Positions 4,611-29,722 of a stretch of 64,000 bases of DNA are shown here, piece after piece; the stretch's first letter is position 1; each line of letters opens with the position of its first letter. The translations under genes and the position numbers were made by a program. This DNA comes from Labilithrix sp. (GTDB lineage: Bacteria; Myxococcota_A; Polyangia; Polyangiales; Polyangiaceae): assembly GCA_019637105.1 (NCBI GenBank), contig JAHBWF010000001.1, forward strand, positions 1 through 64,000, written 5' to 3'. The notes beneath the pieces are model-generated. The model searched no databases, had not been told where the DNA came from, and was given only the letters and a program-made list of their open reading frames with translations.

Positions 4611-6704
4611 CTACGGACGTCCGAGCGTCGCGTGGATCGGCGCTCGCGGCGCCGCCGTCGTTGGGCGGCGGTCCGCCGTCGACGAGGGGAGCTCGCGCGC
4701 TCCTCCGCCCTCGAACCCCGCGCCCGTCGTGAGCGTCTCCGTGATCCTGCGCGAGAACGCACGGAACCACGTCAGGAGCGTCTGACCACGCATGTCGTGA
4801 GCGAACGCGATGAGGCGACGGCCGTCGATCATGACGTCCACCATCTTTTGTTCGACGTCGGCGATGCGCACCAAAGGCTTCCAGGCTTCGGGGTTCGACA
4901 TGAGCATGAAATGGCAGCAGAGCTCTCCGTCGAGAGCGCCGAGCTCGCGTTCCGCGTTGATGACGTGACAGCCGCTCGAGACGGGCGTGACGTCGTGGTA
5001 GGCCCGGCAGTCCGCGAACCAGCGCGTCACGGAGTACTTGCCGACTCGCTCGAGCGAGGCGTCGAGCACGCCGAGCACGGGATCGACGGCTCGCGCCTCG
5101 TCGTCGTGCGGCTCGATCTTGAGGAAGACGGAGTAGCCGAGCATCGCGCCGTCCTGGTCGCGAACGACGCGGGCGCACGTGGGATCGCGCGCCAGCCAGT
5201 AGCGCAGCGCGGCCGCGCTGGCGGCGCCCTCGAAGCGATCGACGTATCGCTCGATCGCCTCGAGATCGGCGATGCTCGGCGCCCCGGAGAGCTTGGGGAG
5301 CGACATCAGCGGAGCGATCGCGGGGTGGAGATCGAGGAGCCGCCAGATCGAGGCGACGAGGCGGCGACGGCGCTCGGGCGAAGCGGTGCTCTCGAGCTCG
5401 GCGAACAGCTTCACGTGGGCGCGCTCGACGAGGAGCCCGAGGCGCGAGGCGTTTCGCCAGGCGAGGTTCGCGGTGAGCGTCGTCTTGGCGAGATCGTGAA
5501 GCGCCAACCCCGCCGGGTGCCTCTCGACCATCCCGAGCGTCGACAGCCAGTCGAAGTACGCGCTCGTGGCGGTGTCGTCTCCCAGCATGGCGGCGAGGAG
5601 AGGTTCGTCGAGCGCGTCGACGACGGCGAGGCAGTCGAGCGCGTCGCGATGCTGCTTCGAAGGAGCCTCCCTCACGAACGAGTCGAGCAGCGCCGTCGCG
5701 AGCCCGTCCGTCGCGTCCGGCAGGGAGCCGTCGAAGCGTCCCGTGCGTCGCAGGGAGTCCGTCGCGAGCACGAGCGTCAGCGGATGGCCGCCCGCCAAAC
5801 GCAGGATCGAGTCGCGCTCCGTCGGCGCGACGCCGCGGCGTTCGAGCAGCGCGCTGGCCTCGTCGAGGCTCAGGTCTCCGAGCGGGAGCTCCGCGGCCTT
5901 TGTCCAGATCGGATCGACGCGCCATCGCATACCGGGCGGGTTTCGGCCGGAGAGCACGAGGCGCCATCCGGGGGGCAGTCGTTGCACGAACCGCTCGCGC
6001 AGCCAGTCGTCGATCCCCCCGAGCGCCTCGTAGCCGTCGAGCGCCAGGAGCCCGGCCGGGAGCGCGGCGAGCGCGTCGGGGATCGCGCTCGCCGTCGCGA
6101 CCCCGCAGCTCGCAGCGATCGCCTCCATCAGCGCTTCGGGGCTCGGTCGGACGTGGGCGCAGGAGATCGTGACGACGGACACGTCGTGCTCGAGCGCCGA
6201 CGACTCGAGCCGATGGAGGAGCGAGGTCTTGCCGATGCCGCCGACCCCGTGGACCCAGAAGAGCCGGGTGGCGTCGGACGACGGATCCGTGACCCAGGCG
6301 GCGAGCCGCCGGAGCTCTGCGTCACGCCCGACGAAGAGGCGCTCGCGGGCGTCGCTCAACGCCGAGGGGACGACGGCTCCGTGTCGCTCGACCGGCGTCA
6401 CGAACGCGTAGCCGATGCCGTGCACGGTGCGGATGAACCGCTGGTCGTCGTCGTCGAGGGTCCGGCGCAGCGATTTCACCACCGTGTTGACCGCGCTCGG
6501 GCTCACTACCTGCCCCTGCCACACGGCCTCGAGGAGCTCGCCGCGGGTCACCACGCTCGGCGCACGGCGGACGAGGGTGCGGAGGAAGGCGAGCACCTTC
6601 GGGGCCGCCTCGACCCGCGAGGACGTGTTCGCCGTGTCTCGGGTTCGCCGGCGCAGCTCTCGCCCATCCTCGTCGAGCTCGAAGTCGTCGAAGAAGTAGC
6701 GCAT
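4611..6704 (-). CDS. Winged-helix STAND-type ATPase transcriptional regulator
   Basis: 697 aa. Residues 1-103 form an OmpR/PhoB-type winged helix (LLEAVWQ, then VNTVVKSLRRTL, then RTVHGIGYAF). Residues about 125-420 form a P-loop NTPase of the STAND/AAA type with Walker A GVGGIGKT at 153-160. A helical region follows. The C-terminal about 150 residues (YSVFLKIEPHDDEA and beyond) look like a GNAT-type or other alpha/beta sensor domain, which I cannot assign. There are no TM segments, so it is a cytoplasmic, presumably nucleotide-dependent, one-component regulator. The start is the first ATG of the winged helix. Its target is unknown; neighbours are the dipeptidase gene downstream and a peptidase gene upstream. 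Confidence 0.85.
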   Translation of the reverse strand: MRYFFDDFELDEDGRELRRRTRDTANTSSRVEAAPKVLAFLRTLVRRAPSVVTRGELLEAVWQGQVVSPSAVNTVVKSLRRTLDDDDQRFIRTVHGIGYAFVTPVERHGAVVPSALSDARERLFVGRDAELRRLAAWVTDPSSDATRLFWVHGVGGIGKTSLLHRLESSALEHDVSVVTISCAHVRPSPEALMEAIAASCGVATASAIPDALAALPAGLLALDGYEALGGIDDWLRERFVQRLPPGWRLVLSGRNPPGMRWRVDPIWTKAAELPLGDLSLDEASALLERRGVAPTERDSILRLAGGHPLTLVLATDSLRRTGRFDGSLPDATDGLATALLDSFVREAPSKQHRDALDCLAVVDALDEPLLAAMLGDDTATSAYFDWLSTLGMVERHPAGLALHDLAKTTLTANLAWRNASRLGLLVERAHVKLFAELESTASPERRRRLVASIWRLLDLHPAIAPLMSLPKLSGAPSIADLEAIERYVDRFEGAASAAALRYWLARDPTCARVVRDQDGAMLGYSVFLKIEPHDDEARAVDPVLGVLDASLERVGKYSVTRWFADCRAYHDVTPVSSGCHVINAERELGALDGELCCHFMLMSNPEAWKPLVRIADVEQKMVDVMIDGRRLIAFAHDMRGQTLLTWFRAFSRRITETLTTGAGFEGGGARELPSSTADRRPTTAAPRAPIHATLGRP

Positions 6705-24786: not shown

Positions 24787-25305
24787 ATGTCTCTCTTGCC
24801 CTGCCCCTCGTGCGCCCGCCACGTTCGATCCTCGGAGTCCGCGTGTCCGTTCTGCGCGGCCTCGCTGACGTCCCATCCGAAACGTGTCGTCCCGGCGGCG
24901 GGACGACGGCTCGAGCGCCTGGCCGCGTTCACCTTCGCCGCGACCGTCACGGTGACCGGATGCGTCGCGGGCAGCGAGGAGGAGACGGGGCAGAGCGAAG
25001 ACGAGCTCGGCGCCGTCCAGCCGATGTACGGGATGCCGCCGGAGCAGCCGATCGACGCGGGCACCCGCCCCGACTCCGGCAACGTGAAGCCGGACGCCGC
25101 GACCGACGGCGGAGCGGCGGAGGACGCCGGGCCTGCTCCGTGCGACGACGGTGGCGCGATGATGCCGATGTACGGCATGCCCGCGTCCCCCGAGGCGAAG
25201 GCCGACGCCAAGGGCAAGGGAGAGCCCGCGTTCGAGCCCTGCCCGATCGAGGAGGACGGCGGGACGATGATGCCGATGTACGGTATGCCGGCCTCCGAGG
25301 AGTGA
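24787..25305 (+). CDS. Zinc-ribbon, membrane-anchored protein with three PMYGMP motifs (candidate RiPP-type precursor)
   Basis: 172 aa. Residues 1-30 form a zinc ribbon with paired Cys (C6, C9, C20, C23; CPSC and CPFC). Residues about 45-60 are a hydrophobic segment ending in VTGC (C59), which is lipobox-like but far from the N-terminus. The rest is an acidic, disordered tail with the motif PMYGMP at 79-84, 127-132 and 163-168. The last two sit in the longer shared context MMPMYGMPAS, with an acidic DGG before them. GAAAGG precedes the ATG with 8 nt spacing. It lies 65 bp before a radical SAM/SPASM enzyme on the same strand. Repeated short motifs with a Tyr beside a SPASM enzyme fit a ribosomally made, modified peptide substrate. 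The modification itself is inference. Confidence 0.85.
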   Translation: MSLLPCPSCARHVRSSESACPFCAASLTSHPKRVVPAAGRRLERLAAFTFAATVTVTGCVAGSEEETGQSEDELGAVQPMYGMPPEQPIDAGTRPDSGNVKPDAATDGGAAEDAGPAPCDDGGAMMPMYGMPASPEAKADAKGKGEPAFEPCPIEEDGGTMMPMYGMPASEE

Positions 25306-25370
25306 CGCCTCGCGCGTAGCATCGACGCTCGACGGCCGGCGTTCGTGAGGACGCCGGCGCGAGGTTTCCC

Positions 25371-26645
25371 ATGTCCGAGATCGGCCCGCGCCCGCGTTTC
25401 CTTCCCATCGCGCCCACGGCGAATCCTGCCCGGCGCAACCTCCCGCTCCTCGACGACGCGCGCGCGGTCGATCGGCGGTGGCAGCCGGTCTACGCCGTTT
25501 GGGAGATCACGCTCGCGTGCGACCTCGCGTGCCGGCACTGCGGCTCACGCGCCGGCCGCGAGCGCCCGGACGAGCTCACGACCGAGCAGGCGCTCGATCT
25601 CGTCCATCAGATGGCGGACCTCGGCGTCCGCGAGGTGACGCTCATCGGCGGCGAGGCGTACCTGCGCGACGACTGGACGGAGATCGCCCGCACGATCGTC
25701 GCGCGCGGCATGTCCTGCGGGATCACGACCGGGGGGCGCGGCTTCACCGCCCAGCGCGCGCGTGACGCCTACGCCGCGGGCGTCCGCGCCGTCTCCGTCT
25801 CGATCGACGGGCTCCAGCCCACGCACGACAAGCTCCGTGGCGTCCAGGGCAGCTTCGACGCCGCGATGAACGCGATGACGAACTTGCAGGACGCAGGCAT
25901 CGCGGTCAGCGCCAACACCCAGTTCAACCGCGCGAGCCTCCCGGAGATCGAGGAGCTCTTCGACAAGCTCGTCGAGAAGAAGATCCGCGCGTGGCAGGTC
26001 CAGCTGACCGTCGCGATGGGCCGCGCGGTCGACGAGCAGGCGCTGCTCCTCGAGCCGTATCACGTGCTCGAGGTGATGCCGCTCCTCGCGCGCCTGAAGC
26101 CGCGCGCGGACGCGGCGAAGATCATGATCTGGCCCGGCAACAACATCGGCTACTTCGGGCCGTACGAGACCCTCCTCAAGGGGAACATGCCGCGCGGCCA
26201 CATGGCCTCGTGCGGCGCCGGGCGTTCGACGCTCGGCATCGAGGCCAACGGCGACATCAAGGGCTGCCCGTCCCTGCCGACGACGGACTACGTCGGCGGC
26301 AACATCCGCGATCACTCGCTCAAGGACATCTGGGAGCGCTCGAAGCCGCTCCGCTTCACGCGGGACCGCACCGTCGAGGACCTCTTCGGCTTCTGCCGTG
26401 ACTGCTACTACAACGACACCTGCCGCGCGGGTTGCTCCTGGACGACGCACGTCCTCTTCGGCAAGCCCGGCAACAACCCGTTCTGCCATCACCGCGCGCT
26501 CGAGCTGCTCCGCGAAGGAAAGCGCGAACGCATCGTGAAGGTCGCGGAGGCCGCCGGGCAGCCGTTCGATCACGGCAGGTTCGAGATCGTCGTCGAGGAC
26601 TGGCCGGCGGACGAGATCGACGCCGCGCGCGCGCTCGGCTCGTGA
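25371..26645 (+). CDS. Radical SAM/SPASM-domain enzyme, candidate maturase of the PMYGMP protein
   Basis: 424 aa. C50-x3-C54-x2-C57 (CDLACRHC) is the radical SAM [4Fe-4S] site; GGEAYLRDDW (93-102) follows as in the GGE motif. The C-terminus has the full SPASM signature: C281, G294-x4-C299, then C342-x2-C345-x5-C351-x3-C355 and C372. It should therefore bind two auxiliary clusters, as peptide-modifying enzymes do. There is no RRE-like (PqqD-type) domain that I can see, and no transporter or protease next door. GAGG lies six bases before the ATG. It follows the PMYGMP gene by 65 bp on the same strand and is the last gene before a convergent glycosyltransferase. SPASM enzymes also activate sulfatases, but no sulfatase is nearby. 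Confidence 0.92.
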   Translation: MSEIGPRPRFLPIAPTANPARRNLPLLDDARAVDRRWQPVYAVWEITLACDLACRHCGSRAGRERPDELTTEQALDLVHQMADLGVREVTLIGGEAYLRDDWTEIARTIVARGMSCGITTGGRGFTAQRARDAYAAGVRAVSVSIDGLQPTHDKLRGVQGSFDAAMNAMTNLQDAGIAVSANTQFNRASLPEIEELFDKLVEKKIRAWQVQLTVAMGRAVDEQALLLEPYHVLEVMPLLARLKPRADAAKIMIWPGNNIGYFGPYETLLKGNMPRGHMASCGAGRSTLGIEANGDIKGCPSLPTTDYVGGNIRDHSLKDIWERSKPLRFTRDRTVEDLFGFCRDCYYNDTCRAGCSWTTHVLFGKPGNNPFCHHRALELLREGKRERIVKVAEAAGQPFDHGRFEIVVEDWPADEIDAARALGS

Positions 26646-27754: not shown

Positions 27755-29722
27755 ATGCAAGGCCCGTCCGTACGAATCAAGGGGCGCATCCTCTACGTGA
27801 CCGAGGACGCCTCGCTCCTCGAGAAGCAGCTCGGCGGCGAGGACGTCGACTACGACGTCGCGAAGGACGAGCCGTCGCTCGTGGGCAACATCTCGACGGA
27901 CGAGCTCACGCCTGGATGGGTTTGCTACTACTACGACGAGACGCTCGCGCGCTTCTGCCTGGTCGGCCTGCGCGGCGGCAAGGTCGGCAAGGACGCGATC
28001 AAGAACGGCGGCTTCGGGGTCATCGTCAGCGGCATCTCCAAGGGCTGCGGCTCGAGCCGCGAGACGGCGCCCTACAGCGAGCTGAAGTCGGGCGTCCAGC
28101 TCGTCATCGCGAAGAGCATCGAGAAGATCTACCGCCAGAACGCGCAGAACATCGGCCTGCTCACGTCGACCGACTTCGGCCTCATCGAGCGCATCCGGCG
28201 CGGCGAGTCGATCCCGATGAGCGAGTTCACGAAGGGCCTCGACCCGATCAGCGCGGCGATCGTCGAGCACGGCGGCCTCTTCGCGTACAACCGCGCGCGC
28301 CTCGCGGGGGAGACGACTCCGCCGCCCGTCACGACCCCGGCGCGCCCGATGACCCTCTGCGAGAAGATCCTCGCGGCGCACGTCATCGTGGACGCGAAGT
28401 CGGGCGAGCTCGGCGCCGCCGCGGTCAAGCCGGGCGACGCGTTCTTCGCGCGCACCGACGTCCGCTTCAGCCACGAGTACGTGACGCCGATGGCGGAGTC
28501 GCTCTTCGCCGCCGAGATGGGCAAGGACGCGAAGGTGACCGATCCCGCGAGCGTCTTCGCGTTCCGCGACCACCTCACGTTCCTCGATCTCGTCATGCCC
28601 CGCGCCCACCGCGAGATGGGCCTCAAGGAGCAGGCCGAGGAGCTCGCCACGGTCCAGGAGTCGTTCACCAAGCGCCAGGGCGTGAAGCTCTACGGAGAGG
28701 TCCGCCGCGACGGCAAGCTCGTCGGCTCGGAGGCCATCTGCCACAACAAGGTGATCGAGGAGCTCGCGCTCCCGGGGCAGCTCGTCGCCGGCACCGACTC
28801 GCACACGTGCATGGCGGGCGCGCTCGGCTGCTTCGCGTTCGGCGTCGGCTCCACCGACATGGCGAACGCCTGGTACACGAAGGACGTCCGCGTCACCGTC
28901 CCCGAGACGGCGAAGTTCGTCCTCACCGGGCTCCTCCCGCACGGCGTCTGCGCGAAGGACGTCATGCTCCACATCCTCAGCCAGCCGTTCTTCAAGACGG
29001 GGAAGGGGATCGGCAAGGTCCTCGAGTTCGCGGGCGACGGCGTCCGCGCGATGCCGCTCGACGAGCGCGCCACCCTCACGAACATGGCGGTCGAGGCGGG
29101 CGGCTTCACCGGCATCATCGAGGCCGACGACGTCGTCGTCGACTACCTCGTCAAGCAGCGTGGCCTCGCCGCCGACGACGTCCGGAGGCGCATCGTCAAG
29201 GCCGACGCGGACGCGCAGTACCTCGCGACCTTCGAGATCGATCTCTCCACCCTCGAGCCGATGGTCGCGACGCCCGGCGATCCACGCAACGGCGTGCCGC
29301 TCCGCGAGCTCCCGGGGACGAAGATCGACATCGCGTACGGCGGCTCGTGCACCGGCGGCAAGAAGGCCGACATGGACATGTACGCCGAGGTCCTCAAGAT
29401 CGCCCTCGAGCAGGGCAAGCGGGTCGCCGACGGCGTGCACCTCTACATCCAGTTCGGCTCGCAGGACATCCGGCGCTACGCCGAGTCGAAGGGCTACCTC
29501 GACGTCTTCGCCAAGGCCGGCGCCGAGCTCGTCGATCCGTCGTGCGGCGCGTGCATCAAGGCCGGCCCGGGCGTGAGCGACTCGCCCGATCAGGTCACCG
29601 TCAGCGCGATCAACCGCAACTTCCCCGGTCGGAGCGGACCCGGCAAGGTCTACCTCGCGAGCCCGCTCGTCGTCGCCGCCAGCGCCATCGCCGGCAAGAT
29701 CGTCTCCCCCGACGCGCTCTGA
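27755..29722 (+). CDS. Aconitase-superfamily hydro-lyase with LeuD-like and LeuC-like domains fused
   Basis: 655 aa. Residues about 1-190 are the small swivel domain (VSGISKGCGSSRETAPYSE, the LeuD GCGSSRE motif). Residues about 200-655 are the large domain: TDSHTCMAGALG (first cluster Cys), SCGACIKAGPG (CxxC pair) and NRNFPGRSG (active-site Asn/Arg). The four-iron cluster ligands are complete, so the enzyme should be active in isomerising a 2-hydroxy acid via dehydration. The order small-then-large is the reverse of aconitase and matches the leuC-leuD/homoaconitase group only after permutation. Isopropylmalate is one possible substrate, but no other leu gene is present. The start is the ATG that opens VRIKGRILYV. 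Confidence 0.9.
   Translation: MQGPSVRIKGRILYVTEDASLLEKQLGGEDVDYDVAKDEPSLVGNISTDELTPGWVCYYYDETLARFCLVGLRGGKVGKDAIKNGGFGVIVSGISKGCGSSRETAPYSELKSGVQLVIAKSIEKIYRQNAQNIGLLTSTDFGLIERIRRGESIPMSEFTKGLDPISAAIVEHGGLFAYNRARLAGETTPPPVTTPARPMTLCEKILAAHVIVDAKSGELGAAAVKPGDAFFARTDVRFSHEYVTPMAESLFAAEMGKDAKVTDPASVFAFRDHLTFLDLVMPRAHREMGLKEQAEELATVQESFTKRQGVKLYGEVRRDGKLVGSEAICHNKVIEELALPGQLVAGTDSHTCMAGALGCFAFGVGSTDMANAWYTKDVRVTVPETAKFVLTGLLPHGVCAKDVMLHILSQPFFKTGKGIGKVLEFAGDGVRAMPLDERATLTNMAVEAGGFTGIIEADDVVVDYLVKQRGLAADDVRRRIVKADADAQYLATFEIDLSTLEPMVATPGDPRNGVPLRELPGTKIDIAYGGSCTGGKKADMDMYAEVLKIALEQGKRVADGVHLYIQFGSQDIRRYAESKGYLDVFAKAGAELVDPSCGACIKAGPGVSDSPDQVTVSAINRNFPGRSGPGKVYLASPLVVAASAIAGKIVSPDAL

Follow-up and report, generated by a model that had tools for sequence, protein, structure and literature searches.

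A splicease-like radical SAM/SPASM enzyme paired with a zinc-ribbon prelipoprotein carrying repeated Tyr-Gly motifs: a probable splicing system in Myxococcota

Labilithrix sp. probably possesses a splicease-type system in which a lipoprotein precursor serves as the substrate, and its chemistry would, with rather high confidence and by analogy with characterised spliceases, be splicing at XYG motifs. The two genes lie close together in the window (the whole analysed stretch of 64,000 nucleotides, i.e. positions 1 to 64,000 of contig JAHBWF010000001.1), and by sequence comparison the pair is a member of a large Myxococcota family. The reaction is already known from small peptides, and its use on a ribbon-tagged family of envelope proteins is unusual. 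The original prediction had envisaged a possibly undescribed peptide-modification system, which as regards the chemistry no longer holds, because the predicted excision of tyramine is a published reaction. The features of the locus are as follows.

24787..25305, + strand: substrate gene, encoding a zinc-ribbon prelipoprotein of 172 aa in which XYG occurs three times (ORF and homologs)
24802..24855, + strand: zinc ribbon of the Cys4 type at residues 6-23, CPSCARHVRSSESACPFC, proposed as the module for recognition (alignment, profile comparison)
24904..24963, + strand: hydrophobic segment ending in the lipobox-like VTG-Cys59, predicted lipoprotein signal
25021..25038, + strand: PMYGMP motif 1, residues 79-84
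25165..25182, + strand: PMYGMP motif 2, residues 127-132
25273..25290, + strand: PMYGMP motif 3, residues 163-168, near the C-terminus
25335..25358, + strand: intergenic hairpin with a 10-bp stem and a 4-nt loop (RNAfold minimum), between the substrate and enzyme genes
25371..26645, + strand: radical SAM/SPASM enzyme, 424 aa, splicease-like (Pfam, NCBIfam, alignment, tree, AlphaFold model)
25518..25541, + strand: CX3CX2C radical SAM cluster motif (C50, C54, C57), invariant in 16 aligned sequences
26211..26486, + strand: seven-Cys SPASM region, from C281 to C372 (Pfam SPASM at residues 281-346; the seven Cys invariant in alignment A1)

The open reading frame at 24787-25305 confirms the 172-aa protein as it had been described, with a Cys4 ribbon (Cys6, Cys9, Cys20 and Cys23), a hydrophobic segment, a lipobox-like Cys59 and three PMYGMP motifs. 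The tail also contains Cys119 and Cys152, which were absent from that description. By eye, VTGC59 behind the hydrophobic segment presents the lipobox feature of a bacterial lipoprotein, and lipidation is predicted; by a simple rule, a lipobox-like Cys following a hydrophobic stretch is found in 88 of 98 family members, and the earlier view of a membrane-displayed product instead of a small secreted RiPP looks right as far as the sequence can tell. Across 24 aligned relatives C6, C9, H12, C20, P21, F22 and C23 are invariant (the ribbon cysteines, though not H12, were in the regular expression by which these rows were chosen). In the substrate alignment A2, R44 is invariant as well, while the invariance of C59 there only reflects the rows having been cut at that Cys. 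From Cys59 onwards the tail has 24 Asp and Glu, 5 Lys and Arg, and 3 Tyr, each of them in YG. When this tail is shuffled, at least three YG arise in 0.28% of cases and at least two MYGM in 1 of 200,000. The MYGMP pattern ATGTAYGGNATGCC occurs three times in the 8.45-Mb assembly (91.5% complete), always at the substrate gene, with 0 occurrences for the reversed-pattern control in the same assembly and 0 in window shuffles. Since the Gly codons of the three PMYGMP copies differ (GGG, GGC and GGT), a recent DNA duplication of the motif is argued against.

The enzyme gene follows after a gap of 65 bp, and the 10-bp hairpin stem is predicted at the near-identical locus L070 too. All ten cysteines expected of the enzyme are indeed present, three in CX3CX2C and seven in SPASM (281, 299, 342, 345, 351, 355 and 372), plus an extra C116, and this combination of CX3CX2C with a seven-Cys SPASM is the cysteine pattern of the splicease type. 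Pfam recognises Radical_SAM (5.2e-23) and SPASM (1.7e-9); the protein ends at residue 424, a C-terminal zinc ribbon being absent. The pair is flanked upstream by two minus-strand ORFs without a Pfam match and downstream by a glycosyltransferase. In NCBIfam the enzyme matches nif11-class maturase 3 (TIGR04103, 499.9 bits) and GDL-peptide maturase (TIGR03913, 497.9 bits over positions 14-390 of the 477 in the profile) best, the next being TIGR04133 (162.8 bits), and the respective curated cut-offs of 725, 591.75 and 425 bits are not reached. A Nostoc maturase 3, which passes its own family cut-off (853 bits) and stood in for PlpX in the sequence comparison, shares 49% identity with the window enzyme, and the enzymes of Azospirillum and Aureibacter are about 50-52% identical in BLAST (48% in A1). 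In a quick tree without bootstrap, in which a group of 92 rows was set against 15 more distant rows, these three and the window enzyme fall in that one group (SH-aLRT 100), as does the distant-labelled row L245; the distant rows do not form a clean functional outgroup, as XYG repeats are likewise present at 10 of the 20 distant loci. The AlphaFold model of the window enzyme (mean pLDDT 88) has SkfB and PqqE, and also SuiB, as its closest solved folds. A solved splicease structure was found neither by sequence at E<=0.001 nor, under that name, in the list of 50 fold matches of either model.

As far as described in PMC10533398, PMC11002830 and PMC10373908, PlpXY of Pleurocapsa PCC 7319 (PlpX in IPR026482) resembles the window pair in combining a radical SAM/SPASM enzyme with an XYG target, whose natural X is Met or Leu and of which a precursor may hold several. 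According to PMC10533398, PlpXY spliceases excise tyramine at XYG, and PIRP[G/L]YGLPI and AVAAGYGVVFP are found in its listed splice tags; PLYGLP is common to one of these tags and some members of the present family, in which YGCVFP/YGGVFP is also seen. Motif likeness says little about turnover, since PlpXY did not accept the majority of the tags inserted into FtsZ, although it did accept two with GYG (PMC10533398). Furthermore, PlpXY involves a Nif11 or nitrile-hydratase-type leader and the small PlpY, whereas the window has a zinc-ribbon prelipoprotein and no PlpY was detected. Pfam and NCBIfam scans of the substrate at E<=1 gave no match to either leader type, and Pfam gave none to DUF1843.

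In the TIGR04103 cassette of the Nostoc C057 plasmid (L063), the enzyme follows a Nif11 precursor ending in ALYGLPPELF, and the three MYG of the window substrate give it the XYG of such precursors. The Nostoc enzyme is followed by a 71-aa ORF, which from its position we infer to be PlpY-like; with this one short, divergent query, only chance-level matches were obtained among the loci searched. The TIGR03913 GDL maturases (Azospirillum, Aureibacter and Acidobacteriota, the Aureibacter enzyme scoring below the cut-off) carry a ribbon of the same type as the window's, and their precursors with XYG contain MLYGGA, KPYGVA, RPYGPA, PPYGVPI or PPYGEAI. The Azospirillum and Aureibacter enzymes follow DUF1843 peptides, with an N-terminal XYG in 6 of 11. 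In GDL systems, however, the enzyme has the ribbon attached or next to it, and the annotated precursors, 54-70 aa long, lack a signal, whereas in the window the ribbon is on the substrate. Among more remote SPASM enzymes of Myxococcota (35-43% identical), 10 of 20 loci have XYG repeats, either next to the enzyme or as part of its own C-terminal tail; unlike in the window, the zinc ribbon is absent and several enzymes carry the repeats themselves. TIGR04133 and TIGR04134, which we take to be an rSAM/lipoprotein system of Bacteroidota whose lipoproteins presumably bear a YG.P-like motif, likewise pair a radical SAM/SPASM enzyme with a predicted lipoprotein, but TIGR04133 is a different enzyme family (163 versus a cut-off of 425). 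Zinc-ribbon lipoprotein substrates were not reported in the literature searched, the reach of which did not include the key 2022 splicease survey, so that priority is uncertain.

In the proposed mechanism the enzyme would recognise its substrate in the cytosol, probably via the N-terminal zinc ribbon, and act on each Met-Tyr-Gly in the disordered tail, from which tyramine would be cut out (about -135 Da per motif). Tyramine excision is favoured because the enzyme's group and the XYG motif both point there, which also makes the crosslinking with a loss of 2 Da that had been proposed unlikely. The substrate would be exported afterwards, upon which signal peptidase II should cut before Cys59; export and this cleavage are reasonably probable. 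As the cut would also remove the ribbon, ribbon and signal would together serve as the leader. The mature product would then be a lipid-anchored acidic tail bearing three ketoamides, possibly displayed so as to inhibit serine or cysteine proteases covalently with several heads, although protease inhibition by the mature tail is put forward tentatively. Spliced peptides are potent protease inhibitors according to one review (PMC10373908), and another stated that, as of 2022, a natural spliceotide had never been isolated and the biological role was unknown (PMC8868522). It is also conceivable, if somewhat unlikely, that splicing is real but that the product is no protease inhibitor, its ketones being recognition marks or reactive handles that join the lipoproteins to amines or surface components. 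Spliced GYG sites (aminopyruvate units) do react with added tetrazines in proteins (PMC10533398), and the presence of up to about ten such lipoproteins in one genome, some with MopE-type ends, would fit such a role, whereas the potent inhibition reported in the review (PMC10373908) argues against it.

Of the target that had been suggested, Tyr or Tyr-Gly-Met, the Tyr-Gly part is likely to be correct, since 225 of the 254 tail tyrosines near the enzyme are in YG and 29 outside it (shuffled mean 46.7, maximum 63, shared ancestry ignored), whereas Met after Gly is not conserved. In fact, Gly is mostly followed by Ala, Gly or Leu, and Tyr is preceded by Leu, Ala, Pro, Met, Arg or Val. The near-enzyme tails contain 174 YG.P, 1 FG.P and no WG.P or HG.P; background predicted lipoproteins from the same loci have 15 of 145 Tyr in YG and no YG.P. 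Shuffles, background lipoproteins and codon differences thus rule out that the repeats stem from chance or low complexity. ORFs with at least two YG.P or YG..P are found at 42 of the 78 named enzyme loci and 10 of the 20 more distant ones, the latter being no negative control for XYG because of these very repeats. The same search at control radical SAM loci returned 0 of 29 (TIGR04053) and 0 of 30 (MoaA-like), i.e. 52/98 enzyme loci versus 0/59 control loci (Fisher 1.9e-14, shared ancestry ignored). That the enzyme modifies Tyr or Tyr-Gly otherwise (by crosslinking, epimerisation or hydroxylation), with a splicease likeness in the motif only, is improbable. The window enzyme misses the curated family cut-offs, the splicease activity of its branch is predicted, and the chemistry of SkfB, PqqE and SuiB, its nearest solved folds, differs from splicing. 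However, the characterised XYG reaction belongs to the same sequence group (if Nostoc maturase 3 represents PlpX), the Tyr before G.P is not replaced in the counts above, and for a crosslink there is no constant partner residue on either side of Tyr-Gly.

The two proteins belong together, as had been supposed, and at the genome level this view withstands the refutation test set for it. In a sample of 140 genomes searched with the substrate (ribbon-lipoprotein) profile at E<=1e-5, 29 had both, 0 the substrate only, 16 the enzyme only and 95 neither (Fisher 7.5e-19, shared ancestry ignored), so that the enzyme is present in 29 of 29 genomes with the substrate. Constant adjacency, on the other hand, did not stand and was dropped as a criterion: 27 of 68 profile matches have no enzyme gene within 5 kb on their contig, some perhaps because of the draft state of the assemblies, yet all 27 keep YG, with 48 of their 53 Tyr in it, and the enzyme therefore probably also works in trans. 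Eight weak ribbon matches in enzyme-free genomes have 1 of 31 Tyr in YG. No clear partner was seen for 11 of the 65 enzyme genes in the sample, and under the filters of this analysis 8 of 78 named loci lack a ribbon protein bearing YG; at 3 loci Tyr is followed by Ala or Ser. Ribbon-YG lipoproteins number up to about ten per genome by profile matches (10 in G032, 9 in G118, 8 in both G022 and G041), and an enzyme with an adjoining gene of this kind is found in the strain records of Polyangium fumosum, Plesiocystis pacifica, Enhygromyxa salina and Lujinxingia vulgaris. Some tails run into unrelated ends, e.g. MopE-type repeats. That YG stays unmodified, the ribbon lipoprotein being structural or binding and the enzyme in the operon by chance, might explain the separate matches (27/68) and the enzyme genes without such a neighbour, but is very improbable in view of the complete co-occurrence (29/29 at E<=1e-5), the difference in YG between enzyme-free weak matches (1/31) and separate substrates (48/53), and the 0 of 59 control radical SAM loci with a repeated YG.P protein.

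Within the splicease-type system, it is quite probable from the comparison of ribbons that the zinc ribbon is the recognition element for the enzyme. The substrate ribbon profile aligns with enzyme-side ribbons over 35 columns (hhalign probability 98, E 2.5e-13). The latter are in the enzyme's frame at the C-terminus in Azospirillum (L064, L069), Aureibacter, L130, L139 and L147 and at the N-terminus in Tropicibacter, and form a small separate ORF after the enzyme at L136 and L141. The L130 ribbon is not stand-alone but lies within the enzyme ORF (5088-6599), and the ribbon stretch of the L147 AlphaFold model has block pLDDT values of 80-93. With a similar ribbon present in GDL-type enzymes or next to them, the ribbon may be a recognition module that is mobile. 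A universal role in recognition is weakened by the more distant loci: 10 of the 20 show XYG repeats although a ribbon is lacking (in six cases the repeats belong to the tail of the enzyme itself), so that the link to XYG does not depend on the ribbon, and ribbon plus YG was found at none of these 20. In its widest form, the chances of which we consider evenly balanced, the proposal would be that in many Myxococcota envelope lipoproteins (up to ~10 per genome) are splicease-edited, partly in trans, into ketoamide arrays, with a mobile ribbon (on the enzyme, next to it or at the N-terminus of the substrate) replacing leader/PlpY recognition and signal peptidase II doubling as leader peptidase, and that the enzymes of a distant ribbon-free branch serve as their own substrates, bearing up to seven XYG repeats.

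For spliceotide function the family provides a natural context, and in named strains with the pair (e.g. Polyangium fumosum) the native membrane proteins could be checked directly. The natural XYG sites counted, over 200 in number, map the enzyme's likely tolerance, and the enzymes with their own XYG repeats would provide a simple test bed. If the ribbon is a recognition module that moves between enzyme and substrate, it would serve as a compact tag with which to edit protein backbones. If the proposal is true, these bacteria would have a cell surface with ribosomally made beta-amino-acid residues, serving as protease traps or reactive handles.

The substrate and enzyme genes look like a two-gene unit, since the nearest long ORFs that flank it are all encoded on the minus strand, two upstream, neither with a Pfam match, and a glycosyltransferase downstream:

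24787-25305, + strand: substrate gene (ORF), encoding P0001, a 172-aa zinc-ribbon prelipoprotein
25335-25358: strong predicted hairpin between the two genes, also present in L070, another of the fetched loci
25371-26645, + strand: enzyme gene (ORF), 65 bp after the substrate gene, encoding a radical SAM/SPASM protein

The residues and coordinates in the original prediction, which read the pair as a possible undescribed peptide-modification system, were all borne out when the sequence was rechecked. The enzyme is 99% identical to that of a Labilithrix sp. MAG, and all three copies of MYGMP-encoding DNA in the Labilithrix assembly fall inside the substrate gene. The hairpin might hold enzyme expression below that of the substrate. 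At 27794-29722 lies an aconitase-family protein of permuted order, its Aconitase_C match (residues 76-124) preceding the large domain (residues 191-505).

P0001 as single query found matches in 28 of 59 genomes (E<=1e-3); for the enzyme the figure was 43 of 59 (E<=1e-40), and both counts include the genome of the window itself. An enzyme-alignment scan of the genome contigs gave at least 525 relatives, the best 80 of which (mostly labelled Myxococcota or Deltaproteobacteria, with three Pyrinomonadaceae or Acidobacteriota and one Verrucomicrobia) led to the 78 named loci. A first regular expression found 106 ribbon ORFs across 67 of these, of which eight were removed before counting (three without start codon, five below 85 aa). 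This left 98 ORFs at 60 loci, including one pair (L088) with a common stop codon, i.e. one tail counted twice. At 57 of the 60 the ribbon is accompanied by Tyr-Gly (YG), and at three by Tyr followed by Ala or Ser; with L135, L142 and L144, added by looser inspection, ribbon plus YG totals 60 of 78. Two loci, L108 (YG tail) and L076 (ribbon), are truncated by contig ends. At five the ribbon belongs to the enzyme (L130, L139, L147) or to a small ORF after it (L136, L141). At eight (L071, L085, L091, L094, L097, L116, L122, L127) these filters found no ribbon protein with YG; for L094 and L116 a contig end is less than 600 bp away. Most ribbon ORFs (78/98) lie no more than 700 bp from the enzyme match, and 90/98 share its strand.

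The YG motif played no part in the selection of the 98 proteins, and in their tails 225 of 254 Tyr are followed by Gly, against a mean of 46.7 and a maximum of 63 in 1000 shuffling trials. Pro occupies the second position after Gly at 174 of the 225 sites, while the residue before Tyr (Leu 56, Ala 42, Pro 26, Met 22, Arg 21, Val 21, rest fewer) and that after Gly (Ala 84, Gly 57, Leu 24) vary. When the tails were cut slightly differently, YG.P occurred 174 times, FG.P once, and WG.P, HG.P and LG.P never, despite the tails being rich in Phe (196) and Leu (353). In 27 other lipoprotein-like ORFs from the same loci only 15 of 145 Tyr were in YG, with no YG.P. Tyr is followed by Ala, Ser or Met instead of Gly in L110, L117 and L138 and in the DUF1843 peptides of L064, L065, L068 and L069; such variants might represent alternative sites or dead ones. 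The C-terminus of some members is YGCVFP or YGGVFP, similar to AVAAGYGVVFP, a tag of a second type given in PMC10533398. Only two tag variants were accepted in FtsZ, both GYG, of the PIRPGYGLPI type (PMC10533398).

Co-occurrence was assessed in 140 evenly drawn Myxococcota genomes, with a ribbon-plus-signal profile (at most 45 candidates scored per genome, so that misses are possible) and the enzyme (15 rows below 350 bits excluded). At substrate E<=1e-5, 29 genomes had both, none the substrate only, 16 the enzyme only and 95 neither (Fisher 7.5e-19, treating genomes as independent of ancestry). At E<=1e-3 eight genomes had a ribbon match without enzyme, and in those eight proteins only 1 of 31 Tyr was in YG. 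An enzyme gene lay no further than 5 kb away for 41 of the 68 matches at E<=1e-5; the 27 elsewhere all kept YG (48/53 Tyr). Among 30 best-per-genome loci, 29 had a ribbon ORF with YG, the exception coming from a genome without enzyme. Conversely, 37 of 65 enzyme genes had a profile match (E<=1e-3) within 5 kb, and inspection of all 28 remaining loci revealed a profile-missed ribbon-YG protein at 13 (L247, L248, L250, L251, L252, L254, L255, L256, L260, L261, L263, L264, L268), ribbon proteins with YS at L272, a tag on the enzyme at L246, a protein with two XYG and no recognised ribbon at L245 and L253, and nothing clear at 11.

XYG is the tripeptide at which the PlpXY splicease excises tyramine, leaving a ketoamide (PMC11002830, PMC10373908). 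In NCBIfam the window enzyme scored 499.9 and 497.9 bits against two maturase families (next 162.8), and it is filed in neither because both curated cut-offs were missed. A maximum-likelihood tree, built quickly from 107 rows (among them 77 of the 78 named loci; L130, truncated at an upstream stop, is absent), placed it in one 92-row group (SH-aLRT 100) with the Nostoc maturase 3 and the GDL maturases, apart from 15 distant rows. This group also took in L245, which had been labelled distant, and L258 carried the label ribbon-on-substrate by default, with no ribbon seen nearby. XYG occurs in the precursors from Nostoc (ALYGLP), Azospirillum (MLYGGA, KPYGVA, RPYGPA), Aureibacter (QPYGAG) and Acidobacteriota (PPYGVPI, PPYGEAI), and N-terminally in 6 of 11 plasmid DUF1843 peptides, the others having YA or YM; at the inspected loci of Tropicibacter, Agathobacter, L136 and L141 no XYG precursor was found. 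Structure models are similar to PqqE, SkfB and SuiB. Maturase 3 is TIGR04103, which is equivalent to IPR026482. PlpX belongs to IPR026482 (PMC11002830). Following from the same sequence group, the same tripeptide, the similar context and the near-strict Tyr, the case for the window pair being a splicease and its substrate is strong but indirect, with the Nostoc maturase 3 standing in for PlpX.

Ribbon plus YG was found at none of 20 loci whose enzymes are more distant or score lower. Since 10 of the 20 have XYG repeats without ribbon, the XYG link reaches beyond the ribbon; these repeats support that link, yet weaken the universality of the ribbon. They lie in a neighbouring ORF in L227, L229, L244 and L245, and on the C-terminal tail of the SPASM enzyme itself in six loci:

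L230, 2501-3931: five AYGIP
L233, 1946-3481
L238, 2-1531
L239, 2453-4252
L240, 2078-3616, and L241, 1925-4219: seven EYG/DYG sites

These enzymes (35-43% identical) look as if each were its own substrate; none turned up in the literature searched, by searches not aimed at them. ORFs with at least two YG.P or YG..P occurred at 42/78 named and 10/20 distant loci, versus 0/29 TIGR04053 loci (25 rows above the 395-bit cut-off, one more with neighbours in frame) and 0/30 MoaA-like loci (none above the family cut-off) from the same 59 genomes, the control loci being somewhat shorter (mean 3.8-3.9 kb versus stretches up to 4.2 kb). Two near-group enzymes also end in a tag, in L246 (2489-3808, G009 contig C2; ...EKYGAPPMRK) and in L095 of Polyangium fumosum (enzyme end near 6245-6273; ...RRYGLAPVVP). 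An unrelated-looking 94-aa ORF in L246 (4032-4313) ends in ...DRKYGAPPMRK, as though this were a portable tag.

The ribbon itself is found C-terminally on the enzymes of Azospirillum (L064, L069), Aureibacter (L065), L130, L139 and L147, N-terminally on that of Tropicibacter, and as a separate 55-72 aa ORF after the enzyme in L136 and L141; the distant enzyme branch has none. Enzyme-side and substrate ribbons matched in a profile comparison (probability 98, E 2.5e-13, 35 columns), figures that short Cys-rich profiles can inflate. The zinc site may be purely structural, but a ribbon on either enzyme or substrate is the pattern that a recognition module should give: L130, L139 and L147 are the only ones of the 78 named loci with a ribbon in the enzyme frame, and at none of them is a ribbon substrate in view.

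As no signal was seen by eye on the enzyme, it would meet the substrate ribbon in the cytosol, and since 88 of the 98 relatives have a lipobox-like Cys past the hydrophobic stretch, signal peptidase II would take off the ribbon together with the signal. In L252, L254, L255 and L263 the predicted lipidated Cys doubles as X of the motif (MACYG...), and splicing would there change the lipid-carrying residue. In L264 (3685-4008) ribbon and YG run into MopE-type Asp-rich repeats (PF11617 match), as they do by eye, with YG or YS, in L268 (1658-1975), L272 (1712-2516), L200, L203 and L209, so that the same front end appears joined to other surface domains.

The splicing chemistry is already known; in the literature searched, neither a zinc-ribbon lipoprotein substrate class nor the ribbon swap was found. 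The title of Scott et al. 2022 reportedly covers peptides and proteins, and that work may already list such loci. Ketoamides are electrophiles. Potent inhibition of proteases by spliced peptides is described in a review (PMC10373908), and the product of the window pair may inhibit proteases too.
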